Origin: Bacteroidales bacterium
GTDB lineage: Bacteria; Bacteroidota; Bacteroidia; Bacteroidales; VadinHA17
DNA: 64,000 nucleotides
Direction of reading: 5' to 3'
Assembly: GCA_003142255.1 (NCBI GenBank)
Contig: PLLO01000016.1
Location: 1 to 64,000, forward strand
The notes under the pieces were generated by a model. The model was not told where the DNA came from, did not search any database, and saw only the letters and a list, made by a program, of their open reading frames with translations. Of this stretch, positions 19,092-38,457 are shown in pieces (within the stretch, counting starts at the first letter, position 1; every line of letters begins with the position of its first letter). A program made the position numbers and the translations under genes.

Positions 19092-19511
19092 TCAGAGATA
19101 TTTTCTATCCTCATCAGGAACTTCAAAATACTTGTCATATACCTTAACATCAGGGCCTGCTTTTACTTCGATCTTATTTCCCCTGATCTTATATGTACAT
19201 TTCTCTCCGACGATTCCTGAGAAGTAAATATTAGATTCCTTTCCATCCTCATCTTTCATCAGAATTCTGACAAGGTGAAGATATTTCATACTGTTGAGCT
19301 GAGCTCCACAGATGGGACAGCTAAAAATGTATTCTTCTCCTTCCTTCATCTCAAATGAAGGATGAGTAGTTTTAGTGTAGTTCCCGAGTTCAGGATTGAG
19401 ATAGACCAATCCTCTCTGAGTGCGGTCTTTAAGACTTGTAGCAGCAAGGATAATGGAAGTTTTGACATTCAGGTTACCCTTGCATACTTTGCATCGATAT
19501 TCCACGGCCAT
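19092..19511 (-). CDS. Zinc-ribbon protein at the end of the hydrogenase operon, function unknown
   Basis: A 139-residue protein that I do not recognise. It has two CxxC pairs (YRCKVCKG at residues 6-11, and FSCPICGAQ near 70), probably one zinc site, followed by a beta-rich C-terminal half. It has a strong Shine-Dalgarno sequence, AGGAGGTG, 4 nt before the ATG, which is unusual for this phylum, and its start overlaps the protease gene by 38 nt. It is the last gene of the [NiFe] hydrogenase array. A role in assembly or in metal handling is possible, but only its position suggests that. Confidence 0.75.
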   Translation of the reverse strand: MAVEYRCKVCKGNLNVKTSIILAATSLKDRTQRGLVYLNPELGNYTKTTHPSFEMKEGEEYIFSCPICGAQLNSMKYLHLVRILMKDEDGKESNIYFSGIVGEKCTYKIRGNKIEVKAGPDVKVYDKYFEVPDEDRKYL

Positions 19512-19968
19512 AATTCACCTCCTGTCTGTTTAGACGTTTAATTAATTTATCTGCAATTTTCTTAACAAGGTACGAGATATTTTCACCAAAGTCAATTTTT
19601 TCCGGCTGTATTCCGAGTATATAAACCGGCATCAGAAAGAAGTCAGACAATCGTTTCAGTGAAATATTGTGAGTATTGAAAGTGAGATCGCGTATCTGAC
19701 TTATATCAAGCAACTTAAATGTTCCCGGAACTGATTTCAGATCAACACAGTCAATCAGTACGAGTATATCCGGATTAAGACTGTTGATTTTCCCAATATA
19801 ATTCTCAATGCTGGTTTCGACAGTAAGCGAGGTAATAATTTCAGTATTCCTGATATGTCTGCTTATATACACACCAATCCCGTCATCCATTTTCAGCAGA
19901 TTACCAATACCGACAAAAAGTATCTTTTTACCTTTTTTCGATAGCAGATTATCCAGATCTTCAGGCAC
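19474..19968 (-). CDS. [NiFe] hydrogenase maturation protease (HycI/HyaD family)
   Basis: A 164-residue endopeptidase of the M52/A31 family that trims the C-terminal tail of the hydrogenase large subunit once nickel is inserted. The family motif GIGNLLKMDDGIGVYI is near residue 20, with acidic residues expected to sense nickel (the Asp of MDDG; DCVD near 74), and THNISL supplies the conserved His. The large subunit in this operon carries a removable 38-residue tail after DPCYCCTER, so enzyme and substrate are encoded together. It overlaps the upstream ferredoxin-like gene by 8 nt. Confidence 0.92.
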   Translation of the reverse strand: MPEDLDNLLSKKGKKILFVGIGNLLKMDDGIGVYISRHIRNTEIITSLTVETSIENYIGKINSLNPDILVLIDCVDLKSVPGTFKLLDISQIRDLTFNTHNISLKRLSDFFLMPVYILGIQPEKIDFGENISYLVKKIADKLIKRLNRQEVNYGRGISMQSMQG

Positions 19969-20581
19969 CTTTAAATAAGTATTTTACAAGAACCTGCCTC
20001 ATGCAGTTCGGACAAATAATATTGAACATGTCCTTTCGCTTCAGCCCGTCCCTGACTTCAATTTTTATATCCTGACCCTCTTCAAGCCTCAGCTTCTGGT
20101 TAAGGAGGTTCAGGTTGAGAATTGAAGAGAAAGCTTTTGGACCGAGTTTCCTGTGCATATAATGCAGATGTTCCTTAGTTGTTATTACGGTGCCGCAGCT
20201 TTCGCATATGAGCAATTCTTTCTCCTGGTATTCAACATTTTTTTCTCTGTCAAATACTGCCAGATCGAAAATCTTGTCAGAAAGCTTAACTCCTTTCTGA
20301 GTAATGCAATGATCCTGGCACTGGCCACAAAATATACACTTCCCGTAATCCCTTTTTATAATCCTGATCCTTCTTACCTTATCATCAGTAAAAGTTATTG
20401 CCTGCGGTGGGCAGACATTGGCACATGTCTCACATCCTACACAATTCTCATTGTCCACGACAGGCTTACCCCTGAAGTTCTCGAAAGGAACATGAGGTTC
20501 TTTCGGGAATTTAGAGGTATATGCCGGCGTAACAAGCGAAACAATGGCCTCTTTTAATTCTCTTATCTTGGGATACTTCAT
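19961..20581 (-). CDS. NuoI/HycF-like 2x[4Fe-4S] protein with C-terminal zinc-ribbon-like motif
   Basis: A 206-residue iron-sulfur protein. Two cluster motifs, CVGCETCANVCPP (about 47-59) and CIFCGQCQDHC (about 82-92), are typical of NuoI/HycF subunits that pass electrons toward a membrane hydrogenase. The C-terminal half adds two further CxxC pairs (LICESCG near 125 and CPNCMR near 195), resembling a zinc ribbon as in HycF-like proteins. It overlaps mrpG by 4 nt and the maturation protease by 8 nt. The operon therefore has two separate ferredoxin-like subunits, this one and the gene at 29686. Confidence 0.88.
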   Translation of the reverse strand: MKYPKIRELKEAIVSLVTPAYTSKFPKEPHVPFENFRGKPVVDNENCVGCETCANVCPPQAITFTDDKVRRIRIIKRDYGKCIFCGQCQDHCITQKGVKLSDKIFDLAVFDREKNVEYQEKELLICESCGTVITTKEHLHYMHRKLGPKAFSSILNLNLLNQKLRLEEGQDIKIEVRDGLKRKDMFNIICPNCMRQVLVKYLFKGA

Positions 20582-20904
20582 TTTACTGCATCTTTGTAAT
20601 CATCTTTCACACTTTTATCACCAAGTTTTATCCCGAAATGGTAAGTTCCCCTTATGAGAGCATGTGCGGCTACGGTGGAAGTGAAAAACAATATCGGGAT
20701 CGCAACCAGGGCTTTTGTGCCGGCGTCACTTATCCCAAAATGAAATAACACTCCAAGAAGGATGCTGCAACAACCCAGGGTGACAGCTTTTGTCGCTGCC
20801 TGAAGCCTGTTATAGGTATCTGGCAGCCTTACGATCCCAATGCACCCCAACAGGTTAAAAAGTACTCCGATTGTTATGAATATCAGACTTATCATATTAC
20901 TCAT
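20578..20904 (-). CDS. Mrp/Mnh antiporter subunit G-like (MbhC type)
   Basis: A 108-residue membrane protein with three predicted membrane segments and the PhaG_MnhG_YufB family pattern: GCIGIVRLPDTYNRLQAATKAVTLG near residues 20-45. In Mrp antiporters and Mbh hydrogenases this small subunit belongs to the Na+/H+ translocating part. Overlaps of 8 nt with mrpF and 4 nt with the ferredoxin-like gene indicate tight translational coupling in the operon. Confidence 0.93.
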   Translation of the reverse strand: MSNMISLIFITIGVLFNLLGCIGIVRLPDTYNRLQAATKAVTLGCCSILLGVLFHFGISDAGTKALVAIPILFFTSTVAAHALIRGTYHFGIKLGDKSVKDDYKDAVK

Positions 20905-21163
20905 TAAGTTTTTTGCCGGTAAGGTATTTTGCCAGGGTTAAAGTCCCAAGAAAGCTAAGGATGATCCATGCAATGCCGATATCGAGAATAAATGATCTCT
21001 CTGTCTGAATAGATATTATTGCACAGATGCCGACCACCAGTATCCCGAAAATATCAACTCCGACCATTCTGTCAGGAATTGTCGGACCCCGGATGATCCT
21101 GTATAAACAAATGCCGCTCAGGGCGATCTGTACATAAAGCAATATATTAAGGTAGCCGCTCAT
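20897..21163 (-). CDS. Mrp/Mnh antiporter subunit F-like (MbhB type)
   Basis: An 88-residue membrane protein with three hydrophobic segments and the MrpF signature YRIIRGPTIPDRMVGVDIFG near residues 20-40. It is part of the ion-translocating module of the membrane-bound hydrogenase. It overlaps both neighbours (ATGA-type with mrpE, 8 nt with mrpG). Confidence 0.93.
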   Translation of the reverse strand: MSGYLNILLYVQIALSGICLYRIIRGPTIPDRMVGVDIFGILVVGICAIISIQTERSFILDIGIAWIILSFLGTLTLAKYLTGKKLNE

Positions 21164-21645
21164 TCTATAATTCTTTTAATGTATTTTTCAAATGCCCCGA
21201 TTATAATAGGAGTATAAACTTCAGGATCCTCTGACCTTATATATATCCAGTGGATATAGAGGTAATCATCAATAATATCAACGGAAATTGTTCCTGGAGT
21301 CATTGTTATTGAATTTGCAAGCAGCATTTTTGCCATATCTGACTTTAGGGTGGTTTTTACTTTAACTATACCCGGCCGGATCGGCATGGCAGGATGCAAT
21401 ACCCTGTAGGCTACATCAAGGTTTGCTTTTAAACATTCCCAGATGAATATGAAGAGATAAACAATAAACCAGAAATAACGCCGGGGCTGCAGCAATTTGT
21501 AAACGTTCGTTATGAAGAATTTTCCAAAAAACAGTGCAGTGATAATAGAAGCAACGACTCCGACGATCAGATTTGAAACCGAAAAATCAAATGTCAGCAG
21601 CAACCAGAAGATAAACGATAATATGAAAAGTGTAATGTATTTCAT
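21160..21645 (-). CDS. Mrp/Mnh antiporter subunit E-like (MbhA type)
   Basis: A 161-residue MnhE-family protein. It has two N-terminal membrane segments, then a soluble domain with the family stretches KANLDVAYRVLHP and ANSITMTPGTISVDI near residues 75-125. This small subunit completes the Mrp-like ion antiporter of Mbh complexes. It starts 1 nt after the mrpD stop. Confidence 0.93.
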   Translation of the reverse strand: MKYITLFILSFIFWLLLTFDFSVSNLIVGVVASIITALFFGKFFITNVYKLLQPRRYFWFIVYLFIFIWECLKANLDVAYRVLHPAMPIRPGIVKVKTTLKSDMAKMLLANSITMTPGTISVDIIDDYLYIHWIYIRSEDPEVYTPIIIGAFEKYIKRIIE

Positions 21646-21646
21646 T

Positions 21647-23188
21647 TCATTGGCCTAGTATAAATGTCGAGTATTTCAAAGGATCTGTTAGAATATTAAC
21701 AGCAGGAGCCAGAATAACCTCCCTTACAGAAGGGATAACAAGCAGGCTGAGAAGTAGACAGAGTATGCTTAAAACAATCATGCTGAACACCATGGGAAAT
21801 GGTACCTCTTTAACTTCAGATCCCATAGGATTTTTAGGCTTGTCATAGAATGCATACCGCTGGAATTTCAGGAATGATGCAAGTGTAATAATGCTTACAA
21901 TAACGGCAAGTGCTGCAAGCAGGTAGAACCTTGCAAGTATAGCTGCAATTATTATTATCAGCTTGCTGAAGAATCCGTTGAAAGGGGGTACACCGGAGAT
22001 TGACATAGAGGCGATAAATGAGGTTGCGGATGTTACCGGCATAACTTTTGCCAGACCACCCATCTCTTTAAGGTTGCGAGTGCCCAAAGTGTATTCTATT
22101 GCACCGGCATTGAGGAACAACAGTCCTTTAAAAGCTGCATGGTTGATAAGGTGGTATATGCCGCCGGTAATTGCCAGGGAGGCAACCTCCGGTTTCAAAC
22201 CACGTGAAACGAGTATCATACCGATTCCAACTGACATTACAACATAACCCATCTGGCTGATGCTGTGATAGGCCAGGAGCCGCTTAATATCCCATTGTCC
22301 TATTGCCAGGAAAACTCCGATCACCATTGAAATGGTTCCGAGGGTTGTTATCAGTATGGCCATTCCTTCACTTATCTCGAACATATTAAAGAACAACCTG
22401 ATGATCACATAAATCCCAACAGCTTTAATGAACACGCCGGAAAGCATTGCTGATATCGGCGATGGCGCTGATGAGTGGGCATCCGGCAGCCAGGCATGGA
22501 ATGGAATAATTGCTGCCTTGAGACCAAATCCGCTCAGGATAAGCAACTGTACAAAAAGATAATATTTTTTGTCATAACCATTGCTGAATGCTGCCCTGAT
22601 ATCAGCAATATTGAGGGTTTTCGTCTTCCAGTAAATAAATCCAATTCCGAAAAGTATCAGGAATGAAGCCAGTCCTCCCAGAACCTGGTATTTAAAGGAT
22701 GCTTCCAGTTCATTTTTTTCAACACCAAAAGCCACAAGTGCATAGGAGGAAATGACTGATATCTCAAGAAATACGAAAATATTGAAAAGGTCTCCGCTGA
22801 TCACAACTCCGTTCATTCCTCCTATAAGCAGGCAGAAAAGTGCATAGAAATAGTTTTCTGCAGTGTATCTTTTAATATATGAAATTGAATAGAAGACAAC
22901 CAGGAATCCGATAAGATTTATGATACAGACAATTAATGAATTAAAACCGTCCATCACTATATAAATTCCGATAGGGATCTTATTTATTGGCTGCCATCCT
23001 CCGACTTTATATAAAGAGAGTCCTCCGTTTAAACTTATCATTGAATAGAAACTCAGGACAACAAGAAAAAGAAGGACACATGATGCGAAATACTTATTAA
23101 AATCCTTGAAAAACCTTCCAAAGATCATTATAAGGAATGTCGCGCTTAGCGGTACAATAACGAATAATGGTAACAGCTGATTCATCAT
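21647..23188 (-). CDS. Mrp/Mnh antiporter subunit D-like, proton-translocating (MbhH type)
   Basis: A 513-residue polytopic membrane protein of the proton-antiporter family (NuoL/M/N, MrpD). It has some 14 hydrophobic segments, the discontinuous-helix region around PFHAWLPDAHSSAPSPISAM near 230, and LLAYHSISQMGYV with its conserved Lys/His residues near 310. In Mbh complexes this subunit sits beside the hydrogenase module and couples H2 formation to ion transport. It follows mrpC with no gap. The start is the first of two ATGs (MMNQLL). Confidence 0.95.
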   Translation of the reverse strand: MMNQLLPLFVIVPLSATFLIMIFGRFFKDFNKYFASCVLLFLVVLSFYSMISLNGGLSLYKVGGWQPINKIPIGIYIVMDGFNSLIVCIINLIGFLVVFYSISYIKRYTAENYFYALFCLLIGGMNGVVISGDLFNIFVFLEISVISSYALVAFGVEKNELEASFKYQVLGGLASFLILFGIGFIYWKTKTLNIADIRAAFSNGYDKKYYLFVQLLILSGFGLKAAIIPFHAWLPDAHSSAPSPISAMLSGVFIKAVGIYVIIRLFFNMFEISEGMAILITTLGTISMVIGVFLAIGQWDIKRLLAYHSISQMGYVVMSVGIGMILVSRGLKPEVASLAITGGIYHLINHAAFKGLLFLNAGAIEYTLGTRNLKEMGGLAKVMPVTSATSFIASMSISGVPPFNGFFSKLIIIIAAILARFYLLAALAVIVSIITLASFLKFQRYAFYDKPKNPMGSEVKEVPFPMVFSMIVLSILCLLLSLLVIPSVREVILAPAVNILTDPLKYSTFILGQ

Positions 23189-23527
23189 CTACCCTCTTAA
23201 TTCATTAATTTCTCTTATATCGAATGTTTTATACTTCCTGTAAAGCCTGATGATCACGGCCATAAGCAAAGCTGTTGTAGCAAGTCCGATAACAATTGCC
23301 GTCAGCACCAGGGTCTGGGGTAATGGATCAACATAAATTTTGTCCGGATCAGCCGGGTTGACAATAGGAGCGACCCCATTGTCAATATACCCGATAAGAG
23401 CAAAGAACAGAAATGTACTGATCTCCATTATTGAAAGCGAAATAGCTATCTTAACCAGGTTTCTTCTGGTAATAACCCCGTATAATCCCACGAAAAAAAG
23501 ACCAAAACACATATAATATGCAATCAT
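23189..23527 (-). CDS. Mrp/Mnh antiporter subunit C-like, NuoK family (MbhG type)
   Basis: A 112-residue NuoK/MnhC family protein with three membrane segments and the pattern GLYGVITRRNLVKIAISLSI near residue 15. There is a hydrophilic insert around 50-65 before LVLTAIVIGLATTALLMAV. It is part of the ion-translocating half of the complex. Its ATG overlaps the mrpB stop (ATGA). Confidence 0.93.
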   Translation of the reverse strand: MIAYYMCFGLFFVGLYGVITRRNLVKIAISLSIMEISTFLFFALIGYIDNGVAPIVNPADPDKIYVDPLPQTLVLTAIVIGLATTALLMAVIIRLYRKYKTFDIREINELRG

Positions 23528-23961
23528 TTCGGTGACTCCTCCTTAAAAATTATTAATGAAAGAAATATTATAAAGACGGATGCAGCAACTTCGATGCCAA
23601 CAAAGATATTGTAAAGTGGTAATACTCCCGCACTTACCAGATCTCCCACATTCCCTTTTGGCAGGAAATTGTTAAAGAAGACTTTCGTTCCAAAAAGAAA
23701 TCCTGCAGTTGCAATCAAAATTACACAGATTGTAGCAGCGCTTTCAACAATTGTAGTTCCCATCTCTTCTTTGACAAGGCTAAAAAAATCAGTTCCATGC
23801 GATAGTATGACAAGTATCAGGGAACCGGCCATGATTACGCCTCCGGCAAATCCGCCGCCTGGCGTGAGATGACCATGAACAATGACATATATGCCGTACA
23901 TGAATATCATCCCGGCAATCAGCTGTGCTGTCTTCTTTACTATGATTGTCATCCCTTTCAT
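23524..23961 (-). CDS. Mrp/Mnh antiporter subunit B-like (MbhF type)
   Basis: A 145-residue MnhB-domain membrane protein with the family hallmark HLTPGGGFAGGVIMAGSLIL near residues 30-50 and four hydrophobic segments. A second in-frame ATG at 23952 is an equally possible start. It is separated from the upstream MbhD/E-like gene by 133 bp that hold a palindromic element (24007-24085), one of three places where such gaps interrupt the otherwise overlapping operon. Confidence 0.93.
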   Translation of the reverse strand: MKGMTIIVKKTAQLIAGMIFMYGIYVIVHGHLTPGGGFAGGVIMAGSLILVILSHGTDFFSLVKEEMGTTIVESAATICVILIATAGFLFGTKVFFNNFLPKGNVGDLVSAGVLPLYNIFVGIEVAASVFIIFLSLIIFKEESPK

Positions 23962-24006
23962 AAGTATCTTATGTCTTTAGTCTTCTGCCTTCTTCTTTTC
24001 GTATCT

Positions 24007-24085
24007 ACCCCCTTTCTTTTTCCCCCAAGGGGGAAATGTATTTTGGTTTTCTCCTTCCCCCCTGGGGGAAGGTCGGGAAGGGGGT
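24007..24085. repeat. Double C-tract palindrome element, copy A
   Basis: This 79-bp element starts ACCCCCTTTC and ends GGAAGGGGGT, so its ends are inverted repeats. Inside are two hairpins: TTTCCCCCAAGGGGGAAA-like (about 24019-24036) and CTTCCCCCCTGGGGGAAG-like (about 24053-24071). Copies B (30215-30306) and C (54585-54660, inverted) share the plan. It lies inside the hydrogenase operon between mrpB and the MbhD/E-like gene. Confidence 0.8.
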
Positions 24086-24094
24086 AATTAAATT

Positions 24095-24622
24095 CTATTT
24101 CTTACCTTTTAATCTTAGTATTGTCAGTACTCCCAGCACTGCGGTTACAAGAACCACTGCCTCACCCATGGTATCATATCCTCTGAAATCAAATACGACA
24201 CCGGTAACAAGATTGGCGCTGCCTGTCTTTTGGGCTGCACCATGGATATACGCATTAGCCATACGGAGGGAACTTTTCCCGAGAACATCAAGATTGCTGG
24301 ATGCAATAATGAAAAAATAGAACAGTACAACAATAATAATCAATCCAGTAGCTGCAGCAATTTTCCCAAATGTGTCAAGCCTCGAAAAAGATTCTTCCCG
24401 TGAGCTGTCCAGAACAACGGCAACCATCATGATCAGTGTGATTGTATCAACCACTATCTGAACAATTGCAAGGTCAGGAGCTTTAAGAAGAAGAAAGCAG
24501 ATCACCAGTCCATAACCTACAATACCGCAGGCAATGACTGCTGACAGCAGATCTTTTGCATGAATGGCAAATAATGCGCCTAAAATCATTAATCCTGTTA
24601 TTATGGATATAGCCACTTCCAT
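24095..24622 (-). CDS. MrpA C-terminal-like membrane subunit (fused MbhD/MbhE type)
   Basis: A 175-residue membrane protein. The first 95 residues match the DUF4040/MbhD segment (KDLLSAVIACGIVGYGLVIC, then APDLAIVQIVVDTITLIMM, which carries the conserved acidic residue). The rest corresponds to an MbhE-like segment (NLVTGVVFDFRGYDTMGEAVVLVTA, written here in its two recognisable halves, GVVFDFRGYDT and GEAVVLVTA). In full Mrp systems these are the C-terminal helices of MrpA; in Mbh complexes they are separate subunits. It follows the NuoL-like gene by 14 nt and carries the lateral ion path of the complex. Confidence 0.9.
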   Translation of the reverse strand: MEVAISIITGLMILGALFAIHAKDLLSAVIACGIVGYGLVICFLLLKAPDLAIVQIVVDTITLIMMVAVVLDSSREESFSRLDTFGKIAAATGLIIIVVLFYFFIIASSNLDVLGKSSLRMANAYIHGAAQKTGSANLVTGVVFDFRGYDTMGEAVVLVTAVLGVLTILRLKGKK

Positions 24623-24636
24623 TCCGCTTGAGTTAT

Positions 24637-26496: not shown

Positions 26497-27698
26497 TTCT
26501 GAAGTTTGATAGTTTTCTTTAATTCATTGGTCACCCTGACTGATTCATTTATCAGTTCATTTGCATTCATTATCTTTTCTCCTGAATTCATATCGTAGAC
26601 AACTGCCATTCGCTCGGTGCAGCAATAGCATGGATCGACTGCAGCAAGTGATATAGTAGCATCAGCAATTGTCTGACCTATACATGACTTCCTGAATGTC
26701 GCAATATTGACATAGCTGGGAGCTCTTATTTTATGTCTGACAGGTGAGTTTGATCCGTCAGACTGCACAAAATGGAATACCTCTCCGCGAGGCGCTTCGG
26801 CACGTCCGTTCCCGATTCCTTCGGGTATCTCTTTTACTTTTACTGAAATATCTCCTTCTTTCTCTTTCTTAAGCCCATCAAGACACTGTTCTATCATTGA
26901 GATCGATTCGTACATCTCGAGCAGCCTGACCTGTGCCTTGGCGAAAACATCGCCTTCATGTGCCGTGATTACTTTCCAGTTTATAAGAGGGTATGCGGCA
27001 TAGGGATCATCTTTCCGCACATCAATTGCCAGTCCTGATGCCCTGGCTGTCGGTCCGACTGCCCCATAATCAATAATATCCTGTTTTGTAAGGATACCGA
27101 CCCCTTTGGTTCGTGCGTGAATTACGGGATCATCCATCACGGCTCCTGTCAGTAAATCGATCTTTTTTCTCGCATCACAGAGAATTTTACGGATGAGAGG
27201 GATTTTTGCCTCTTCGATGTCACGTCTCACACCGCCGACTTTAAACATCGCATAGCTGTTCCTGTTGCCGGAAATCATTTCAAAGAGATCAAGCACGGGT
27301 TCGCGGTATTTCCATGCCCACATGAACACCGTATTATATCCGAGGAAATGTCCGGCAAGACCCACCCAAAGGAGGTGGCTGTGAATTCTTTCCAACTCGG
27401 CAATTATTGTCCTGATGTATTTAGTTCTGTCAGTAATTTCAATATCAGCAATTTCTTCAACGGCATTTGCAAATGCAAAAGGATGAGAGGTTGAGCATAT
27501 TCCACATATACGTTCCACAAGAAAGAAAACCTGTTCATAAGTTTTTGATTCACTGAGCTTTTCTATACCCCTGTGATTATAACCTGTTTCCCACTTAATA
27601 TCTTTTACAATCTCTCCATCGCAATAGAGCTTGAACAATTCAGGCTCTTCCTGCAGTGGGTGGTATGGACCGATCGGTATGAGTGTTTTTTTGCTCAT
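26493..27698 (-). CDS. Group 4 [NiFe] hydrogenase large (catalytic) subunit, MbhL/EchE-like
   Basis: A 401-residue catalytic subunit related to NuoD/HycE that reduces protons or oxidises H2 at a NiFe(CN)2CO centre. All four nickel-ligand cysteines are present: Cys65 and Cys68 in RICGICS, and Cys357 and Cys360 in DPCYCCTER. This separates it from NuoD of complex I, which lacks them. A further cysteine (Cys359) inside the second pair is unusual. The 38 residues after Arg363 form the tail removed by the maturation protease, as in HycE. The gene sits between the 30-kDa-like subunit (17 nt) and the NuoL-like subunit (4-nt overlap). Confidence 0.96.
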   Translation of the reverse strand: MSKKTLIPIGPYHPLQEEPELFKLYCDGEIVKDIKWETGYNHRGIEKLSESKTYEQVFFLVERICGICSTSHPFAFANAVEEIADIEITDRTKYIRTIIAELERIHSHLLWVGLAGHFLGYNTVFMWAWKYREPVLDLFEMISGNRNSYAMFKVGGVRRDIEEAKIPLIRKILCDARKKIDLLTGAVMDDPVIHARTKGVGILTKQDIIDYGAVGPTARASGLAIDVRKDDPYAAYPLINWKVITAHEGDVFAKAQVRLLEMYESISMIEQCLDGLKKEKEGDISVKVKEIPEGIGNGRAEAPRGEVFHFVQSDGSNSPVRHKIRAPSYVNIATFRKSCIGQTIADATISLAAVDPCYCCTERMAVVYDMNSGEKIMNANELINESVRVTNELKKTIKLQK

Positions 27699-27715
27699 TA
27701 TAAATTTATCTCCGG

Positions 27716-28153
27716 TTATTTAAACTCTTTTCTCATCGGATAAACACCTTCAGCCCAGTTGCCTTCTGAAATTAATTTTTCCTGGTTGGGATGGTTTATG
27801 AAATTAATGCCAAAAAGCTCATGCATTTCCCTTTCAATCCAGTTGGAAGCATTGAACATGTTCGACAGGGATTCAATCTGAGGGTTCTCTTTATCCAGCA
27901 CCACGTGGATATTAAGTATAAGACCAAAAGAGTCCTTGCTGAAATGATAATGGATCTCAAATCCTTTTCTTGAATGAATTGCGGTGGCTATAATAAACCG
28001 GAATCCTGCAGATTTGTACAGGTAATCAGCTATATCAATGATTGCATCCGGATTAACAGTGATTATTATCCGTTTTTCATTCTTTTTAATTACATCAAGA
28101 ATGTAAGATTTGAATCTTAATTTGAATAATCCTATTATCGCTTCACTATCCAT
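27716..28153 (-). CDS. NuoC/MbhK-like hydrogenase subunit
   Basis: A 145-residue member of the 30-kDa complex I subunit family, with the characteristic NWIEREMHELFGINFINHP near residue 105 and YPMRKEF at the end. It has a structural role beside the large subunit. An in-frame start at 28198 would add 15 basic residues from low-quality repeat sequence, so the ATG at 28153 is chosen. A 162-bp gap with a hairpin and a heptamer repeat separates it from the small subunit upstream. Confidence 0.92.
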   Translation of the reverse strand: MDSEAIIGLFKLRFKSYILDVIKKNEKRIIITVNPDAIIDIADYLYKSAGFRFIIATAIHSRKGFEIHYHFSKDSFGLILNIHVVLDKENPQIESLSNMFNASNWIEREMHELFGINFINHPNQEKLISEGNWAEGVYPMRKEFK

Positions 28154-28216
28154 TTTCAATTTTTTTAATCTTTCACCTTTTCCGCTTCGCCCTTCCAAAA
28201 ATCTGGCTCCTTTGCT

Positions 28217-28239
28217 AAATTTGCCTGCCAGGCAAATTT
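28217..28239. repeat. Near-perfect palindrome in the hydrogenase operon
   Basis: Arms AAATTTGCCTG and CAGGCAAATTT (11 bp each) meet around a single C. It lies in the 162-bp gap between the small subunit and the NuoC-like subunit, where the rest of the operon has almost no gaps. It could form an RNA processing or attenuation hairpin; it has no U-tract strong enough to be a clear terminator. Confidence 0.6.
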
Positions 28240-28278
28240 TTAACGCTCGGCCCTGTCGTTTCGCTCCTCAATCTCCTT

Positions 28279-28313
28279 GCACCCTGCACCCTGCACCCTG
28301 CACCCTGCACCTT
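28279..28313. repeat. Heptamer tandem repeat (GCACCCT)x4 plus GCACCTT
   Basis: Four perfect copies of GCACCCT and one variant run directly up to the small-subunit stop codon (28316-28318). A seven-base unit cannot keep a reading frame, so it is non-coding. Related short-period repeats lie at 43936-43975, about 47639-47660 and 48216-48247. Confidence 0.85.
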
Positions 28314-28315
28314 TC

Positions 28316-28729
28316 CTATGAACTCTTCACCAGCTTTACAATCCCTGCTATTATCGCCTCCGGTTTCGGAGGGCATCCCGGTATATAGGCATTTACCGGT
28401 ATTATTTTATCGACAGGTCCGGCAAAAGTATAGCTCTCGGTGAATAATCCTCCGGTGCATCCACAGGCTCCTATTGCAACCACGAGAATAGGTTTTGGAG
28501 CCTGGTTATAGATCTCTATAAGTCTCTCCTTATCATGTATGTTTATTGAACCGTTCACCAGGAGAACATCGGCATGCCTTATGCTGCCAACCAGGAGAAT
28601 ACCAAATCGCTCAAGGTCGTGCCTTGGAGTAAGACAGTCAAGGATCTCAATATCACAATTATTGCATGAGGCTCCACCAAAATGGAAGACCCAGAGCGAT
28701 TTTTTAAAGCAATAATTTTTAAACCCCAC
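28316..28729 (-). CDS. Group 4 [NiFe] hydrogenase small subunit, NuoB/MbhJ-like
   Basis: A 137-residue electron-transfer subunit that holds the proximal [4Fe-4S] cluster next to the NiFe site. Cluster ligands are visible as GGASCNNCDIE (Cys22, Cys25), GACGCTGG (Cys89) and YIPGCPPKPE (Cys119). The small size is normal for group 4 enzymes. The start is GTG at 28729, 12 nt after the NuoH-like stop; no in-frame ATG fits the conserved N-terminus. Confidence 0.95.
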   Translation of the reverse strand: MGFKNYCFKKSLWVFHFGGASCNNCDIEILDCLTPRHDLERFGILLVGSIRHADVLLVNGSINIHDKERLIEIYNQAPKPILVVAIGACGCTGGLFTESYTFAGPVDKIIPVNAYIPGCPPKPEAIIAGIVKLVKSS

Positions 28730-28741
28730 AGCTATAAGTAT

Positions 28742-29674
28742 TTAATAACCAAATGCAATCAGTACAAGCGCAATAACTGCGATCAGATTCATCCAGACCA
28801 TGAAAAAGCTCATAGCCTGTTTGATCTTAATCCTTGGATTAGTGTTCTTTATCAGCGTTATAAGAAGAACAATACCAATGACTTTCAGCACTGCCCATAG
28901 AATATGTATTCCGTTTAGCATGAAACCGCTCATGAACAGGGCGACCAAAAGTGAAGGCAGAATAAAAAGCATGATATATTTCGACAGCTTTATCAAAGCA
29001 TAAGTGGCACCGGAAAACTCAATGAATATCCCACCCGTTATTTCTGCTTCCGCTTCAGGCATGTCGAAGGGAACAAAAGCAAGCTTGGCCTGGACACAGA
29101 AAAGAGCAACAATGAATAACAGCACCCCGGATATGCTTCCGATAAATGGTGATCCCGCCTGCTGGGTTTGAATAATTGAATATAAATCAAACTTTTGTCC
29201 GCATTTCATTATAATGCCGGCGATAACAAGAAGGAAAGTAAGTTCATAGCTCAGGATAAGCTTCATCTCACGTGAACTGCCGACGGCAGCAAGCGGATTG
29301 CCTGATGCAAGAGCTCCTGTAATATAAGAGAATGAAGGTATTGTAAGCAAATAAAATATGACAAGGAGATCTCCCCTGAAGCCGGTTGATATATTAAATA
29401 GTGGCAGCAGGATAAAGACCCCTGCCATCGTTGCCCCGAAAACTGCAAATACCGGGGCAAGCAAGAATATCATGGGTGATCCTTTTCTGGGCAAAATGGT
29501 CTCCTTTACCAGGAGCAGCTTGAAGAAATCATAAAATGGCTGTAATAGTGGAGGTCCTTGGCGAAACTGGACCCTGGCACTGATCTTCCTGTCGAACCAT
29601 GAAAGGAGAGCTCCCGTAACTGAAACAAAGAGCAGCCCGGGAAAGACAAGAAAATAAAACAGATTCACTGCCAT
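28742..29674 (-). CDS. NuoH/MbhM-like membrane anchor subunit of the hydrogenase
   Basis: A 310-residue membrane protein of the NuoH/HycD/EchB family. It has about eight hydrophobic segments, SWFDRKISARVQFRQGPPLLQPFYDFFKL (seen as DRKISARVQFRQGPP then QPFYDFFKL) near residue 25, and FVPFDMPEAEAEITGGIFIE near 195, which carries the acidic residues of the quinone-side loop. It anchors the peripheral hydrogenase arm and links it to the antiporter module. Neighbours are 11-12 nt away on each side. Confidence 0.94.
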   Translation of the reverse strand: MAVNLFYFLVFPGLLFVSVTGALLSWFDRKISARVQFRQGPPLLQPFYDFFKLLLVKETILPRKGSPMIFLLAPVFAVFGATMAGVFILLPLFNISTGFRGDLLVIFYLLTIPSFSYITGALASGNPLAAVGSSREMKLILSYELTFLLVIAGIIMKCGQKFDLYSIIQTQQAGSPFIGSISGVLLFIVALFCVQAKLAFVPFDMPEAEAEITGGIFIEFSGATYALIKLSKYIMLFILPSLLVALFMSGFMLNGIHILWAVLKVIGIVLLITLIKNTNPRIKIKQAMSFFMVWMNLIAVIALVLIAFGY

Positions 29675-29685
29675 ATTACTGTTAT

Positions 29686-30177
29686 TTACTGTTTCTCAGT
29701 TGTATATAAATATTCCTTTATCAGCACTTTATCGTTGAGCTGATATACATTATCCTTTGGAGACTCATCATTATCAGTAAGCGAGACTGTCCCATCCGGG
29801 CATTTTGCAATAAATTCCTTCAACTCATTCTCATCTTTAAGATCGTAGAAAAGATCCCTGTTCCTGTGGTGCTTGAAAAAATCAGTCATCATGGTTCCAA
29901 AAGGACAGATTGTGACACATGATTTACATGATACACAAAGGTTTGTATACCGGTTGATCAGCCCGTCACCATCCTTTTCAAGAGCATCGGCCGGACAAAC
30001 GCTGATACATGGAGCATCTTCGCATTTCCGGCATGTGTATCGGAATGTCGCAAGCTCACGGATAGTCTTTAACCCGTTCTGATTGACCGTCGAGTAAAAA
30101 TATGCTTCAGGCAATGCCAGAGCCGGATTTTCGACCATAACGGAACGGAGTTTGATCATATCAATAAGTATCCTCAT
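29686..30177 (-). CDS. Ferredoxin-like 2x[4Fe-4S] subunit (MbhN/HycB-like)
   Basis: A 163-residue iron-sulfur protein with two cluster motifs, CRKCEDAPCISVCP (about 49-62) and CVSCKSCVTICP (about 80-91). The spacing resembles HycB/DMSO-reductase-type electron-transfer subunits. The rest, including an acidic C-terminal part, is not recognised. The ATG at 30177 is chosen over a TTG at 30186. It heads the hydrogenase core block, and probably passes electrons from a donor, either free ferredoxin or the beta/gamma module upstream, to the small subunit. Confidence 0.88.
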   Translation of the reverse strand: MRILIDMIKLRSVMVENPALALPEAYFYSTVNQNGLKTIRELATFRYTCRKCEDAPCISVCPADALEKDGDGLINRYTNLCVSCKSCVTICPFGTMMTDFFKHHRNRDLFYDLKDENELKEFIAKCPDGTVSLTDNDESPKDNVYQLNDKVLIKEYLYTTEKQ

Positions 30178-30214
30178 AAAACACAAATTCTATTACTGCT
30201 ACTGAATTCTTTTT

Positions 30215-30306
30215 GACCCCTTTTCCTGTTTCCCCCAAGGGGGAAAAGATTCCGGACAACTCCTTCCCCCGTGGGGGAATCCCGAGTACTCGGGAGGGAT
30301 GGGGGT
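30215..30306. repeat. Double C-tract palindrome element, copy B
   Basis: A 92-bp element from GACCCC to GGGGGT with hairpins TTTCCCCCAAGGGGGAAA (about 30230-30247), CTTCCCCCGTGGGGGAA and an extra TCCCGAGTACTCGGGA. It is homologous to copies A and C. It lies in the 169-bp gap between the cNMP-domain gene and the ferredoxin-like gene, at the junction of the beta/gamma module and the hydrogenase core. It could lower or split transcription there. Confidence 0.8.
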
Positions 30307-30346
30307 TTTAATAAAACCAATTTCCTTTTTTAAGTTAGTTTATAGT

Positions 30347-30802
30347 TCATAATGTCATCTGATTCATCAGCTGAAATCTTGTATCGCTAAGCCTGCGTGA
30401 AATGGTCTGAGCTATTTTTGACATTGTTTTAAATCCGAAATCGCAATCTTTTTCAATCTCTTTATTAAGCTTCTTCGCATCTATTGAAATCACTTTTGCC
30501 GGTGCCAAAGCCATTACCCATGCAGTCGAAATGAATGGACTGAAAACAGCGGACCACGAAAAGAGCTGACCTTCCTCAATTGTTCCAAGGTGTATTCTTT
30601 TTTCTCTTGCCAGGCTGATTCCAAGTGATAAAGATCCTTCAAAAAGGACATAAACCTCAGAGAGTTCATCATATTGTTCAAACAATATCTCCTTTACCCT
30701 GAATTCTTTTACAGAGCTCATTCTGACAATTGTATCCAATTGTTTATCGCTATAGTTATCGAAAAACCTTATTTTTTTTAAATCATCTGATGTCGGTTTC
30801 AT
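30347..30802 (-). CDS. Cyclic-nucleotide-binding-domain protein without HTH
   Basis: A 151-residue protein that consists of a Crp/Fnr-type cNMP-binding fold (FFDNYSDKQLDTIV, VKEILFEQYDELSEVYVLFEGSLSL, seen as ILFEQYDE then VYVLFEGS, and GQLFSWSAVF) ending in the long dimer helix (QTISRRLSDTRFQL). The DNA-binding domain of true CRP proteins (normally 80 more residues) is absent and no frameshifted HTH follows. It sits between the gamma subunit and the hydrogenase core on the same strand. It might be a ligand-sensing regulatory subunit of the complex rather than a transcription factor; this is inference from size and position. Confidence 0.85.
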   Translation of the reverse strand: MKPTSDDLKKIRFFDNYSDKQLDTIVRMSSVKEFRVKEILFEQYDELSEVYVLFEGSLSLGISLAREKRIHLGTIEEGQLFSWSAVFSPFISTAWVMALAPAKVISIDAKKLNKEIEKDCDFGFKTMSKIAQTISRRLSDTRFQLMNQMTL

Positions 30803-30862
30803 GCTCTCTATATATTTATTAATTCAAGCGGATTACATTTTTTTTAAATACAGACAATGCTT

Positions 30863-31687
30863 CTATTTCCATATGTCAGGAGTGTCTTTTAATTCACTAT
30901 AAGTAAAAACAGGTCCATCTTTGCAGACAAAGAATTCTCCCATCATGCAATGTCCGCATTTACCAAGACCGCATGACATATTTTTTTCCATCGACAGATA
31001 GATCTGATCCTCCTGATATCCCATTTCAAGGAGTCTTATTGTGCCGAATTTCATCATTATAGGAGGGCCGCATACAACTGCTACAGATTTCTCAATGTTC
31101 ATTTTGATCTTATTGAGCAGGCTGGTAACAACCCCTATAGATTCGTTCCAACCTTCTTCGAACTTATCAACAGTACGGTAAGTTTCAAACTTTTCAATTT
31201 TATTCAGCCTGGCAAAAAGAGGTTTATAGATGCAATCTGAAGGAGTTTTGGATCCATAGCAAAGTATCACCTTTTCAAGTTTATCCGTAACACTTTCAAG
31301 TGCGTAAAGCAGCGACCTGATAGGAGCGAGGCCACATCCTCCGCCTAGAATAAGCACTTCTTTTCCATAAAAATTTTCAATGGGGTAACCTCTTCCGAAC
31401 GGACCTCTGATACCCATCAAGACGCCGGGTTTAAGCTTATGCATGCATTCAGTAACATACCCGGTTTTCATAACTGTCACTTCCAGCTTTTCCGTAATAA
31501 GAGGTGATGAAGAAGGAGTAAATGGAGCTTCTCCGATACCATCGACAGACAACTCGATAAACTGACCGGTTTTGAACGAAAATCCTTTTTCCGGAACAAG
31601 CACAAACGTTTTTATCAGCGGTGACTCATCGATTACATCAGTCAGGCTTGCCATGATAGGTTTGTATATGTTCCTTTCATTCACCAT
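30863..31687 (-). CDS. Sulfhydrogenase-type gamma subunit: FAD/NAD(P)H oxidoreductase with [2Fe-2S]
   Basis: A 274-residue protein of the HydG/AsrB/dihydroorotate dehydrogenase electron-transfer family. A FAD domain (TGQFIELSVDGIGEAPFTPS), an NAD(P)-binding domain (GGGCGLAPIRSLL near 113; CGPPIMM near 207) and a C-terminal [2Fe-2S] site with four cysteines in SCGLGKCGHCMMGEFFVC are all present. Such subunits move electrons between NAD(P)H and iron-sulfur clusters. The usual partner is a group 3b hydrogenase (alpha/delta), which is absent here; the same-strand downstream genes encode a group 4 membrane hydrogenase instead. It starts 6 nt after the beta subunit. Confidence 0.92.
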   Translation of the reverse strand: MVNERNIYKPIMASLTDVIDESPLIKTFVLVPEKGFSFKTGQFIELSVDGIGEAPFTPSSSPLITEKLEVTVMKTGYVTECMHKLKPGVLMGIRGPFGRGYPIENFYGKEVLILGGGCGLAPIRSLLYALESVTDKLEKVILCYGSKTPSDCIYKPLFARLNKIEKFETYRTVDKFEEGWNESIGVVTSLLNKIKMNIEKSVAVVCGPPIMMKFGTIRLLEMGYQEDQIYLSMEKNMSCGLGKCGHCMMGEFFVCKDGPVFTYSELKDTPDIWK

Positions 31688-31693
31688 TGCCCC

Positions 31694-32686
31694 TTATTTT
31701 GCTAGTTCCATGAATATTTCGTTTTTATTTATTTTACCGATGCAAGCTTCGATGCATCTGCCACATCCCGTACAAGCAGTGGATTTGAATTTCCCGGGTT
31801 TCCAGACATATTTGCACATATACCTGTTCCTGAAGCGATTCTGAAGCACAAAGAGACCGTCTTCTCCTCCTGCAACCCTTTCAAAACCCGGATACTGGCA
31901 GGCATCCATCTGTTTTACCTTTTCAAATCCAGGCTTATCGATTAGCAGGAAACATGTGCAGGTCGGACAAATTGTTGTGCAGGCACCGCACGAAACACAT
32001 CTTGCTGAATGCCTTTTCCACAGATCGGTACTCGCGCCTGAAACAAGAATGCCGGTTTTTTTATAGTCAGGCAGGCCCTTGTTAGCTGATGAAAGCAAAG
32101 TTTCAGTGGCATGATGCTCTTTCTCAACAGCCGATAAGATCTCTTCATCCTTAAGAGGCATAGCAGCAGGAAAAACAGTGCTTACAAAACCTTCCCCTTT
32201 ACCGGTTATAATCCTTATGATCATCGTTCCGTTAAGGGAAATGAGAGCAAGATCAGCGGTACTGGTCGCAAAAGGCTTGATATCGTACGTCAGGCAATGA
32301 CAATGTTCCTGAATGCCAATACAATCTGTTGAAATAAGGATTGTATTTTCACGGCGTTCCCTGTAATTTATATCAGGAAAGTCTTTATCAAGATAGATCT
32401 CATCAATAATCGAAAGCCCTTCAATATCACAATTTGGAATGCCTATCAGTATCCTCTCCTTCACAGCTTTTTCAGATGTGACATTTTCTTTGACAGGAAG
32501 GAAGAAGCTCTTAAGAGAGGTGGCAGGCTTTGGTTTATTATAAATAATTTTAGAAATATCAACAGGTCTTAACTCTTCATAGTCCTGACCTGAATCATTT
32601 GGGATGCTTGCAAAGATTGCATAGGATAATAGTAGCTTCTCTAAAGCATTATCCCACTCTTCCTTTTTTATGCTTTTATATTGCAT
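31694..32686 (-). CDS. Sulfhydrogenase-type beta subunit / AsrA-like 2x[4Fe-4S] protein
   Basis: A 330-residue protein of the HydB/AsrA family. The N-terminal 215 residues form the family-specific domain (GIPNCDIEGLSIIDEIYL; DCIGIQEHCHC). The C-terminal part has two [4Fe-4S] motifs, CVSCGACTTICPTCTC (about 229-244) and CTGCGRCIEACIG (about 308-320). It passes electrons between the flavin-containing gamma subunit and a catalytic partner. It is the first gene of the hydrogenase array. A 20-bp palindromic operator begins 2 nt upstream of its ATG and there is no Shine-Dalgarno sequence. Confidence 0.92.
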   Translation of the reverse strand: MQYKSIKKEEWDNALEKLLLSYAIFASIPNDSGQDYEELRPVDISKIIYNKPKPATSLKSFFLPVKENVTSEKAVKERILIGIPNCDIEGLSIIDEIYLDKDFPDINYRERRENTILISTDCIGIQEHCHCLTYDIKPFATSTADLALISLNGTMIIRIITGKGEGFVSTVFPAAMPLKDEEILSAVEKEHHATETLLSSANKGLPDYKKTGILVSGASTDLWKRHSARCVSCGACTTICPTCTCFLLIDKPGFEKVKQMDACQYPGFERVAGGEDGLFVLQNRFRNRYMCKYVWKPGKFKSTACTGCGRCIEACIGKINKNEIFMELAK

Positions 32687-36015: not shown

Positions 36016-36017
36016 TC

Positions 36018-38455: not shown

Positions 38456-38457
38456 CT

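Follow-up and report, generated by a model that had tools for sequence, protein, structure and literature searches.

The operon at positions 19092-32686 of the analysed window, a stretch of 64,000 nucleotides from a Bacteroidales genome, raises the question whether the sulfhydrogenase-type subunits HydB and HydG encoded at its head provide an otherwise membrane-bound [NiFe] hydrogenase with access to NAD(P)H. The comparisons given below, which rest on sequence data, lend good support to an NAD(P)H arm of the hydrogenase, and it is likely that the operon codes for a single group 4 [NiFe] hydrogenase that translocates ions and has HydBG as its cytoplasmic electron-input arm.

Gene content and class of the hydrogenase

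The operon comprises 19 open reading frames on the minus strand, with HydB as the first and a zinc-ribbon gene as the last. The initial annotation had described a tightly packed set of genes on one strand, and this description holds, as at 14 of the 18 junctions the genes overlap or lie no more than 17 bp apart, while its count of about 17 genes was too low; the genes that it named were recovered at their positions on the minus strand by profile searches and inspection of the reading frames. Wider gaps are found between HydG and the cNMP gene (60 bp), the cNMP gene and FdN (160 bp), NuoB and NuoC (117 bp), and MbhDE and MrpB (133 bp). The same gene order is seen in other families of the source order as well as in many phyla and is therefore not due to chance.

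The hydrogenase core consists of a NuoH/MbhM-like membrane subunit (28742-29674; PF00146, 4.2e-63), a NuoB/MbhJ-like small subunit with four conserved cysteines (28316-28729; PF01058, 2.6e-29), a NuoC/MbhK-like subunit (27716-28198; PF00329, 9.8e-25), the NuoD/MbhL-like catalytic [NiFe] large subunit (26493-27698) and FdI, a NuoI/MbhN/HycF-like 2x[4Fe-4S] subunit (19961-20581) in which the eight cluster cysteines are conserved in 100% of 36 sequences and are accompanied by a C-terminal Cys4 motif. The counterpart of MrpA is split into two separate genes, coding for a NuoL/MrpA-N-like antiporter subunit (24637-26496; PF00361, 6.6e-56) and an MbhD/MbhE fusion (24095-24622; PF13244, 1.2e-16, and PF20501, 2.8e-8), respectively. 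These are followed by genes for MrpB/MbhF-like (23524-23961; PF04039, 4e-22), MrpC/NuoK-like (23189-23527; PF00420, 4.9e-27), MrpD-like antiporter (21647-23188; PF00361, 1.4e-65), MrpE-like (21160-21645; PF01899, 4.8e-43), MrpF-like (20897-21163; PF04066, 1.4e-14) and MrpG-like (20578-20904; PF03334, 4.1e-23) subunits.

As the initial annotation had noted, the large subunit carries all Ni-binding cysteines, in the pairs RICGICS and DPCYCC, and these are kept in 42 of 42 aligned large subunits, its own sequence included. Its best matches amongst solved structures are MBH and FHL, the closest chain being 6cfw_L of the group 4d MBH of Pyrococcus furiosus (3.4e-87), and the Complex1_49kDa profile (4.9e-68) outscores NiFeSe_Hases (4.3e-15), which places the protein closer to group 4 than to group 3. 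The NuoH-like subunit and the Mrp-type set (NuoL, MbhDE, MrpB-G) that mark a group 4 enzyme of the Mbh/Mrp kind are both present.

Several other assignments were considered and rejected. With respect to a group 3b sulfhydrogenase, NiFeSe_Hases matches only at profile positions 1-69, within NuoD, and no delta subunit was found; a HydBG of group 3b lineage does not agree with the HydG phylogeny (see below) and with HydB and HydG scores under the equivalog cut-offs. The 19 genes include neither Hdr genes, as in an Hdr-Flx bifurcating complex, nor BfuABC (NuoE/NuoF-like) genes, as in Mbh-Bfu, and the retention of the Ni cysteines in the NuoD-like subunit speaks against Mbx/Mbs or complex I.

HydB, HydG and FdN across genomes

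HydB (31694-32686; sulfhydrogenase beta/AsrA family) has two [4Fe-4S] motifs besides other invariant cysteines, 15 cysteines being conserved in 100% of 41 aligned sequences. It matches the ShyB (2.5e-39), HydB (3.2e-37) and AsrA (8.5e-29) profiles, all under their equivalog cut-offs, and the beta subunit of P. furiosus SHI (9nez_B, 2.9e-33). HydG (30863-31687; sulfhydrogenase gamma/AsrB family) matches 9nez_C of the same enzyme (3.3e-46), and according to Pfam (NAD_binding_1, FAD_binding_6, DHODB_Fe-S_bind) and the alignment, the FAD-, NAD(P)- and [2Fe-2S]-binding domains and residues of a HydG-type oxidoreductase are intact, including a GGG.G.AP motif and Cys239/244/247/255 at a conservation of at least 95% in 43 sequences. 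FdN (29686-30186), a HycB/CooF-like 2x[4Fe-4S] protein by profile matches and conserved cysteines (eight at 100% in 43 sequences), has no homologue in any of the five HydBG-less group 4 regions examined and is proposed to be the connector between HydB and the hydrogenase.

The co-location of HydBG with group 4 large subunits, suggested as a check by the initial annotation, proved to be nearly invariant. In 80 named loci sampled via the large subunit alone, HydB and HydG lie upstream in 43 of the 44 having at least 6 kb of upstream sequence, and the 44th has them elsewhere on its contig, at the head of a larger cluster. Altogether they are visible in 60 of the 80 loci (16 of the other 20 have less than 3.2 kb upstream), and next to the large subunit in 18 named phyla. 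Exceptions are one locus in which HydG, FdN and NuoH are absent from about 3.2 kb upstream of NuoB (L069), one genome with a large subunit but no HydG match, whose cluster is cut by a contig end (G559), and one locus without HydBG with unresolved bases directly upstream of its NuoH (L040). In five of the 80 loci (L098, L099, L110, L123, L135) an open reading frame of the size of a molybdopterin subunit lies between HydG and FdN, and the four of these that were searched all match molybdopterin enzymes. In one Cloacimonadota cluster HydBG was also observed at the head of a complex with a NuoD-like subunit devoid of the Ni cysteines.

Amongst 117 genomes of Omnitrophota, 19 of the 23 large subunits with at least 57% identity have HydG at a distance of 2.3-3.0 kb; of the remaining four, two sit at contig breaks and have HydG on a different contig, one is on a short contig and one has a run of N upstream. 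HydG was found near none of the 14 weaker group 4 relatives (39-47% identity, E<=1e-84). Conversely, all 21 operon-type HydG rows come from genomes with a large subunit of the kind having at least 57% identity. Of 30 genomes searched, 13 have, at the thresholds used, no PF00374 match other than the Mbh and no HydG homologue other than the one belonging to it.

In the HydG phylogeny, the operon type is split from the HydG linked to group 3b enzymes, Hdr and FdhA (formate dehydrogenase) by a 100/100 branch, the tree holding five 3b HydG and the identity of the 3b alpha subunit having been checked at four loci. In the four other genomes in which a group 3b enzyme was found next to a HydG, this HydG is distinct from the operon copy and belongs to another lineage. 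The correlation of pairwise distances with those of the large subunit is 0.83 for HydG, 0.82 for FdI and 0.87 for NuoB; none of 2000 permutations reached the HydG value, which drops to 0.50 at deep divergence. Judged by these distances, HydBG has diverged in step with the large subunit to about the same degree as other subunits have.

Regulation and proposed function

Divergent from the hydrogenase operon is a second operon (32874-39141, plus strand), left unmentioned by the initial annotation, which codes for the redox (NADH/NAD+) repressor Rex (32874-33557; NF003996, 217 bits over a cut-off of 138), the true start of which may be slightly downstream of the GTG, and for the maturation proteins HypF, HypC, HypD, HypE, HypA and HypB (33554-39141; HypF and HypC by Pfam, the others by NCBIfam, with HypA just under the cut-off). 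Palindromes, likewise new with respect to the initial annotation, lie between the two operons. The one just upstream of HydB (32689-32706, ATGTGA-N6-TCACAT) is weakly Rex-box-like, with four mismatches, and also fits a generic CRP/FNR-type core; the one at the Rex start (32872-32889, ATGTGAAACAAATCACAA) has two mismatches. Rex-box-like sites with at most two mismatches occur in eight of the ten intergenic regions for which sequence was obtained (an eleventh yielded no sequence), compared with 6 of 400 stretches of 260 bp drawn at random from the window. Of 49 loci, six have a perfect Rex-like site before HydB and 12 have one with at most one mismatch, where shuffles lead to an expectation of 0.025 and 0.375, respectively, and 208 internal stretches gave none; 36 of the 49 lack any site with at most two mismatches. 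Predicted Rex operators are accordingly enriched before HydB and present in several phyla, so that the operon is probably switched on at a high NADH/NAD+ ratio and would serve to remove NAD(P)H through H2 formation.

The initial annotation had suggested that the membrane hydrogenase exchanges electrons with NAD(P)H as well as with ferredoxin. Its NAD(P)H part is supported by the genome tests (co-location, co-divergence, no group 3b alpha subunit found), and the use of ferredoxin, the assembly of all subunits into one physical complex and the transport of ions may be further properties of the enzyme, even if gene linkage as such does not prove a complex. Electrons from NAD(P)H would enter HydG at FAD and [2Fe-2S], pass through the clusters of HydB and the two [4Fe-4S] clusters of FdN to FdI, and from there via the [4Fe-4S] cluster of NuoB to the NiFe site in NuoD, while NuoH, NuoL, MbhDE and MrpB-G would move H+ or Na+. 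The complex would thereby be a reversible NAD(P)H:H+ oxidoreductase, the relay order, the choice between NAD and NADP, the direction and the coupling ion being inferred. With E' of about -280 mV for NADH and -414 mV for H2 (PMC9304861), the reaction from NADH to H2 is uphill at standard H2, and NADH-driven pumping is therefore impossible except at low H2. At high H2, disposal of NAD(P)H would have to be paid from the ion gradient; at low H2 it would about break even or earn.

Alternative explanations

The strongest competing explanation, although an unlikely one, is an ordinary ferredoxin-dependent Mrp-linked Mbh that is merely co-expressed with HydBG as a separate soluble NAD(P)H oxidoreductase, e.g., an NAD(P)H:ferredoxin or polysulfide reductase. 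FdI as an MbhN/NuoI-like subunit would fit such an enzyme, HydBG-type pairs adjoin other enzymes too (Hdr, FdhA, group 3b), and ferredoxin is presumed in the parts of the literature on group 4g organisms considered here. However, the near-invariant position of HydBG at the operon head, its co-divergence with the large subunit at the level of other subunits, the distinct HydG lineage that accompanies the hydrogenase and the co-occurrence of HydBG with the extra Fe-S subunit FdN all argue for the input arm.

Somewhat less probable still is an electron-confurcating complex, in which NAD(P)H via HydBG and reduced ferredoxin via FdI would both be needed for H2 formation, the exergonic ferredoxin half covering the energy cost of the NADH half as well as that of ion transport. 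The profile matches of the operon include no NuoF/BfuB-like, HdrA-like or NfnB-like subunit, and the single FAD of a HydG-type subunit is not known to act as a site of bifurcation. FdN and FdI are nevertheless both conserved as separate Fe-S proteins for electron entry, and the Mbh-BfuABC predicted for Dehalococcoides would be a parallel, as far as described in PMC9304861.

We regard it as improbable that the complex is mainly a reduced-ferredoxin:NAD(P)+ oxidoreductase that takes the place of Rnf or Mbx, H2 being a side outlet. No match to RnfC over its cut-off was found in the genome, and the Cloacimonadota cluster without Ni cysteines mentioned above would be in line with such a function, but the Ni cysteines in all aligned large subunits and the [NiFe] protease gene that trails many relatives' operons where the operon end is visible point to a genuine hydrogenase. 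Moreover, electron flow from FdI to HydBG would skip the NuoB/NuoD site, the presumed site of coupling. Very improbable, finally, is an incidental place of HydBG in the operon and its service to another enzyme (group 3b alpha/delta or Hdr). In its favour, the genome carries a second HydBG pair in an Hdr-type cluster (contig C11), which includes the only other HydB homologue at E<=1e-5. It is opposed by the clear difference of that cluster's own pair (HydB 31% identical, HydG in a separate clade), as no second [NiFe] large subunit was found in the 98%-complete genome with the NiFeSe_Hases profile at this threshold, and hence none of the group 3b alpha partners named by the initial annotation as a refutation. 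The linkage is, moreover, conserved in many phyla.

Comparison with known systems

P. furiosus MBH has a composition like that of the operon, with a NuoH/B/C/D-like core, MbhDE, NuoL/MrpD-like and Mrp-type subunits and a NuoI-like Fe-S subunit. To our knowledge it has neither HydBG nor an FdN-type subunit and uses ferredoxin as donor, whereas the present operon begins with a conserved module of the NAD(P)H type. P. furiosus SHI (group 3b, PDB 9nez) has homologous HydB and HydG, but its alpha and delta subunits have no counterpart found for the operon, the HydG of which falls outside the 3b clade. Complex I shares a homologous membrane part and the NuoBCDI core and likewise combines NAD(P)H input with an ion pump; the operon differs in having a NiFe site instead of quinone reduction and an NAD(P)H module unrelated to NuoEFG.

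Two related arrangements are already published, asrA/asrB beside an Mrp-linked group 4 hydrogenase and Mbh-BfuABC. The former, in Saganbacteria RX5A, comprises a group 4 hydrogenase with Mrp, cooF, asrA, asrB and a molybdopterin oxidoreductase, with its nearest kin said to be in Zixibacteria and Omnitrophica; the sections of the paper dealing with this enzyme do not propose a linkage to NAD(P)H (PMC6349859). Its parts are of the same kinds, HydB and HydG matching the AsrA and AsrB models and FdN being CooF/HycB-like, but the molybdopterin subunit central there was not seen in the operon or in most of its relatives. The latter, from Dehalococcoides (Chloroflexi), is predicted to combine a membrane [NiFe] hydrogenase with a flavoprotein module that reacts with NAD, with BfuABC (NuoF-like) in place of HydBG, and its description gives six hydrogenase genes and mentions no Mrp set (PMC9304861). 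A Celaenobacter MAG with the same operon (L078/L182) and two Omnitrophota genera are labelled 4g and Mrp-linked in PMC8542988, the main text of which does not contain the term 'HydB'. Group 4g is described by HydDB as being of unknown function and putatively ferredoxin-coupled (PMC5037454), and ferredoxin is the presumed donor in the relevant parts of PMC8542988 (for Cloacimonadota), PMC5037454 and PMC11257099.

A wider claim, possible but doubtful as a whole, is that a large clade of group 4 hydrogenases in at least 18 named phyla, with relatives filed as ferredoxin-dependent 4g, might be complex-I-like in joining a non-homologous NAD(P)H module (HydBG and FdN) to a hydrogenase-ion pump and might use both NAD(P)H and ferredoxin at once, so that the direction of exchange between NAD(P)H and H2 would be set by ferredoxin and the ion gradient. 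If HydBG is indeed an NAD(P)H input arm, many uncultured anaerobes with Mrp-linked group 4 enzymes of the presumed ferredoxin type would exchange NAD(P)H with H2 at an ion-coupled membrane enzyme, which would change both the estimated ATP gain and the partner H2 level needed by such anaerobes. It would further suggest that NAD(P)H input was added on more than one occasion to the hydrogenase-pump relatives of complex I, through unrelated modules (NuoEFG, BfuABC, HydBG), and the origin of complex I would therefore become easier to test.

Accessory genes

The cNMP-binding-domain protein (30347-30802) has PF00027 (1.1e-9) as its sole Pfam match, and thus no DNA-binding domain recognised by Pfam; its gene is an optional accessory, a point absent from the initial annotation, being labelled in three of the 13 regions from the order and other phyla that show HydBG. 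The HycI-type [NiFe] hydrogenase maturation protease (19474-19968; PF01750, 1.9e-7) scores over the cut-off of TIGR00072 and under that of TIGR00142 (6.7e-23). The zinc-ribbon-like protein (19092-19511) has no Pfam match at 0.001, and its predicted model (pLDDT 84.7) no match to a solved structure at E<=0.001; within the order its gene is kept at the operon end, and C7, C10, C65 and C68 are invariant in ten sequences.

Organisation of the operon and its surroundings

An ORF list combined with profile searches bears out the operon that the initial annotation had placed at 19092-32686; its genes and their common strand stand, and the count of about 17 has to be raised to 19 ORFs. In the order of the operon, these code for HydB, HydG, a protein with a cNMP-binding domain, the HycB/CooF-like 2x[4Fe-4S] protein FdN, NuoH, NuoB, NuoC, NuoD (the large subunit), a NuoL-like protein, MbhDE, MrpB, C, D, E, F and G, the NuoI/MbhN/HycF-like 2x[4Fe-4S] subunit FdI, a HycI-type protease and a zinc-ribbon-like protein, all on the minus strand, and 14 of the 18 junctions overlap or leave a gap of at most 17 bp. 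The large subunit contains the motifs RICGICS and DPCYCC; among solved structures it comes closest to the large subunit of P. furiosus MBH (6cfw_L, 3.4e-87), with formate hydrogenlyase and complex I behind. For HydB and HydG, matches were found to subunits of P. furiosus sulfhydrogenase I (9nez_B, 2.9e-33, and 9nez_C, 3.3e-46, respectively) and also to the models for sulfhydrogenase and anaerobic sulfite reductase A/B, the model scores all being under the equivalog cut-offs. A formate-linked enzyme can be dismissed as the identity of this operon because profile searches of its genes found no molybdopterin gene.

The cNMP-binding domain at 30347-30802 (-) stands alone and lies inside the operon in only some relatives, being labelled in three of the 13 regions of the order and phylum that have HydB and HydG (HydBG); being optional, it was rejected as a core part. 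The zinc-ribbon-like protein (19092-19511 (-)) belongs to no Pfam family and is conserved at the operon end within the order; its predicted model is usable and its fold has no match in the PDB. It is possibly an order-specific assembly factor.

Divergent from HydB, the genes Rex-HypF-HypC-HypD-HypE-HypA-HypB (32874-39141) amount to a complete [NiFe] maturation set with Rex, a sensor of the NADH/NAD+ ratio, at its head. The window also codes for a trimeric [FeFe] hydrogenase at 44113-47560 (+), consisting of a NuoE-like protein, a NuoF-like protein and HydA, of which HydA exceeds the threshold set for the 'NADH-dependent [FeFe] hydrogenase, group A6' model; further matches to Fe_hyd_lg_C lie on the genome contigs C6 and C7. 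A run of ORFs at 3-16655 (+) resembles sensor histidine kinases and response regulators, as judged from the sequence. In the genome, RnfC has no match over cut-off, and 20 T9SS C-terminal-tail domains were found, which fits Bacteroidota.

Association of HydBG with the hydrogenase

The linkage of HydBG to this hydrogenase is real, conserved and more dedicated than could be told from the sequence alone. With respect to the genome itself, which is 98% complete, the only PF00374 match is the large subunit of the operon. The initial annotation had named a group 3b alpha/delta pair elsewhere that claims HydBG as the case against it; with no second [NiFe] large subunit found in the genome, membership of HydBG in a soluble group 3b enzyme was rejected.

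One other HydB homologue was found in the genome at E<=1e-5 (31% identity), and it sits in an HdrC-HdrB-HdrA-MvhD-unnamed-HydB-HydG cluster (L004 5436-14001 and L035, contig C11), whose domains are by Pfam Fe-S, CCG, FAD/Fe-S, FlpD and HydBG-type. As this Hdr-type cluster owns a separate pair, the HydBG of the operon were rejected as part of Hdr. The cluster adjoins, divergently, the complex I genes NuoA-D and H-N, among which no NuoEFG was seen when the translations were named by eye, and in an Omnitrophota genome (L192) an Hdr-HydBG cluster likewise adjoins complex I genes. This suggests that HydBG-Hdr is an alternative feeder of complex I.

PF00374 matches just once in 18 of 30 genomes (completeness not stated) drawn from the 80 loci described below, and exactly one HydG homologue was found in 13 of the 18. 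A group 3b enzyme lies beside a HydG in four (L168, L171, L174, L178), where that HydG is a second copy and the best models of the alpha subunits are HydA/ShyA, under the equivalog cut-offs. Among 59 HydG proteins placed in a tree, a 100/100 branch parts 43 operon-linked sequences from five group 3b-linked, eight Hdr-linked and two formate-dehydrogenase-linked ones, and when rooted on PyrK the tree does not show the operon-linked rows as one clade. The two last-named pairs (L169, L172) directly follow a formate dehydrogenase alpha subunit of about 675 aa (over the TIGR01591 cut-off), with which each likely makes up an NAD(P)-linked formate dehydrogenase, and have their own HydG branch.

In the 30 of 34 loci tried that had all eight subunits, pairwise distances of HydG and HydB follow the large-subunit distances (correlations of 0.83 and 0.79) to much the same degree as do those of FdI (0.82) and NuoH (0.81), and none of 2000 permutations came as high; when restricted to large-subunit distances >0.30, the correlations are 0.50 (HydG), 0.47 (HydB), 0.45 (FdI) and 0.62 (NuoB). 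Besides two other Mbh, three complex I and one second NuoD-like sequence, the large-subunit tree had only three PDB entries for reference, given as partial sequences and long-branched, and with this set the clade is not finely placed within group 4.

Conservation within the order and across phyla

Within the order, a large subunit at >=76% identity is encoded by 50 of 146 genomes (own included), in one of them split over two contig fragments (83 and 71%), and the remaining matches are complex I and another Mbh. HydB and HydG were seen in 13 of 17 fetched regions with a large subunit at least 59% identical (16 from a set of 20, plus L057); in the other four, the contig ends inside the cluster (L045, L052, L053) or the bases immediately upstream of NuoH are unresolved (L040). 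The four regions excluded from the 20 hold another Mbh (L037, L038) or complex I (L047, L048). Of 395 genomes sampled from the phylum, only two encode this large subunit at E<=1e-85, one of them being the window's own.

For comparison across phyla, an alignment of large subunits only was run against 84,980 species and the best 80 of 556 relatives were taken, so that the choice of loci follows large-subunit similarity; in the gene maps of these and the other regions, many labels are best BLAST matches to window genes, not profile calls. The conserved co-location of HydBG with a group 4 large subunit, proposed earlier as a check, holds in 43 of the 44 loci among these 80 that reach 6 kb or more upstream of the large subunit, and in the 44th (L078, Celaenobacter) both genes lie farther upstream on the same contig, heading a double cluster. 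With 3.2-6 kb upstream, HydG is present in 19 of 20 of the sampled loci (L069 being without it) and HydB in 17; with <3.2 kb, the numbers are three and none of 16. Altogether, HydB and HydG are visible in 60 of the best 80 loci, from 18 named phyla, the names being those of deposited MAGs, single ones of which may be misbinned. Where the contigs of this sample show it, the order is nearly fixed: HydB-HydG-FdN-H-B-C-D-L-MbhDE-MrpBCDEFG-FdI-protease.

Variants occur among the same best 80 loci. Five candidates from the gene maps (L098, L099, L110, L123, L135) have an ORF of 560-640 aa between HydG and FdN, which matched molybdopterin enzymes in all four that were searched (L098, L099, L110, L135); the carriers are WOR-3/Stahlbacteria, Latescibacterota, Zixibacteria and one unassigned MAG. 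In Celaenobacter (L182 3435-19841, and L078), HydBG heads a double cluster in which Mrp genes, a pyridine nucleotide-disulphide oxidoreductase and a complex whose NuoD-like subunit lacks the CxxC Ni motif are followed by FdN and the full Mbh. Some operons contain extra genes: a CBS-domain protein lies between FdN and NuoH in a locus from Endomicrobia (L100 7496-7876), and a PhoU-domain protein after NuoD in one from Omnitrophota (L092 11176-11796).

A sample of 117 Omnitrophota genomes served as a control. Relative to the window's large subunit, 23 were found at >=57% identity and 14 at 39-47% (E<=1e-84). Rows weaker than that threshold, which have 31-39% identity and include at least one complex I, were not counted; about 4 kb from one of them (genome G670, contig C11) lies an Hdr-type HydG (L192). 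All 21 rows of operon-type HydG (>=46% identity) are in genomes with a large subunit of the >=57% class, in which HydG lies on the same contig, 2.3-3.0 kb from the large subunit, in 19 of 23 cases; the other four comprise two contig breaks with the cluster halves on separate contigs, one short contig and one upstream stretch of N. Near the 39-47% large subunits of this sample, HydG was found in 0 of 14. In five regions of this second type, two from the window's genus (L037, L038) and three from Omnitrophota (L190, L191, L193), there were no homologues of HydB, HydG, FdN or MrpE-G at E<=1e-3.

Cofactor-binding residues and proposed function

Operon-linked HydG (n=43) keeps Cys239/244/247/255 and the motifs of its FAD/NAD(P) domains at >=95%, and HydB (n=41) has 15 invariant Cys. 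All eight cluster Cys are kept in FdN (n=43) and in FdI (n=36), the latter with an additional Cys4 motif at 97-100%, as are all four Cys of NuoB (n=43) and the Ni Cys of the large subunit (n=42). With these residues kept in all six subunits, the predicted cluster chain is unbroken on paper.

The best-supported reading is that of a reversible NAD(P)H:H+ oxidoreductase that would be coupled to ion transport, its rivals being confurcation with ferredoxin and an Mbh using ferredoxin only. With potentials of about -280 mV for NADH and a standard -414 mV for H2 (PMC9304861), the transfer from NADH to H2 is uphill. Disposal of NADH therefore needs low H2, an ion gradient or ferredoxin as second donor. 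In MBH the ferredoxin-facing subunit is of the FdI type, and since FdI is conserved here, ferredoxin as second donor is kept as an option and not claimed.

Partial precedent for an Mrp-linked Mbh headed by HydBG is already in print. According to PMC6349859, the group 4 hydrogenase of Saganbacteria RX5A has Mrp subunits, cooF, asrA and asrB beside it, together with an unclassified molybdopterin oxidoreductase, is nearest to those of Zixibacteria and Omnitrophica, and is likened to Mbh. PMC9304861 predicts an Mbh-BfuABC in Dehalococcoides. PMC8542988 gives the label 4g, Mrp-linked, to the hydrogenases of two Omnitrophota genera and of the Celaenobacter MAG described above; it cites ferredoxin as donor for other Cloacimonadota genera and suggests that the Omnitrophota hydrogenase makes an ionic gradient, as do other Mbh; 'HydB' is absent from its main text. 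In the open-licence literature searched, no statement was found that HydBG serves Mrp-linked group 4 hydrogenases as a conserved NAD(P)H module.

Predicted Rex sites

Rex itself is encoded in nine of the 80 named loci (the best 80 of 556 relatives). Its binding sites, whose consensus we take to be TTGTKAAN4TTMACAA, were searched for in one 381-bp stretch before HydB per locus in 49 loci, with dinucleotide shuffles and 208 internal stretches as controls. Perfect sites were found in six loci, sites with <=1 mismatch in 12 and with <=2 mismatches in 13, as compared with 0.025, 0.375 and 1.475 in the shuffles and 0, 0 and 1 in the internal stretches; 36 of the 49 loci have no Rex-like site with <=2 mismatches. 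The 12 loci with <=1 mismatch belong to Omnitrophota, Bacillota, Elusimicrobiota, Zixibacteria and unassigned MAGs. For several phyla, predicted Rex control links the operon with the NADH/NAD+ ratio, which is not proof of its substrate. In the window's order, a site with <=2 mismatches to TTGTGAAN4TTCACAA is present in eight of 10 mutually related intergenic regions (an 11th gave no sequence) versus six of 400 random stretches. Directly before HydB in the window lies the palindrome TGTGA-N6-TCACA.
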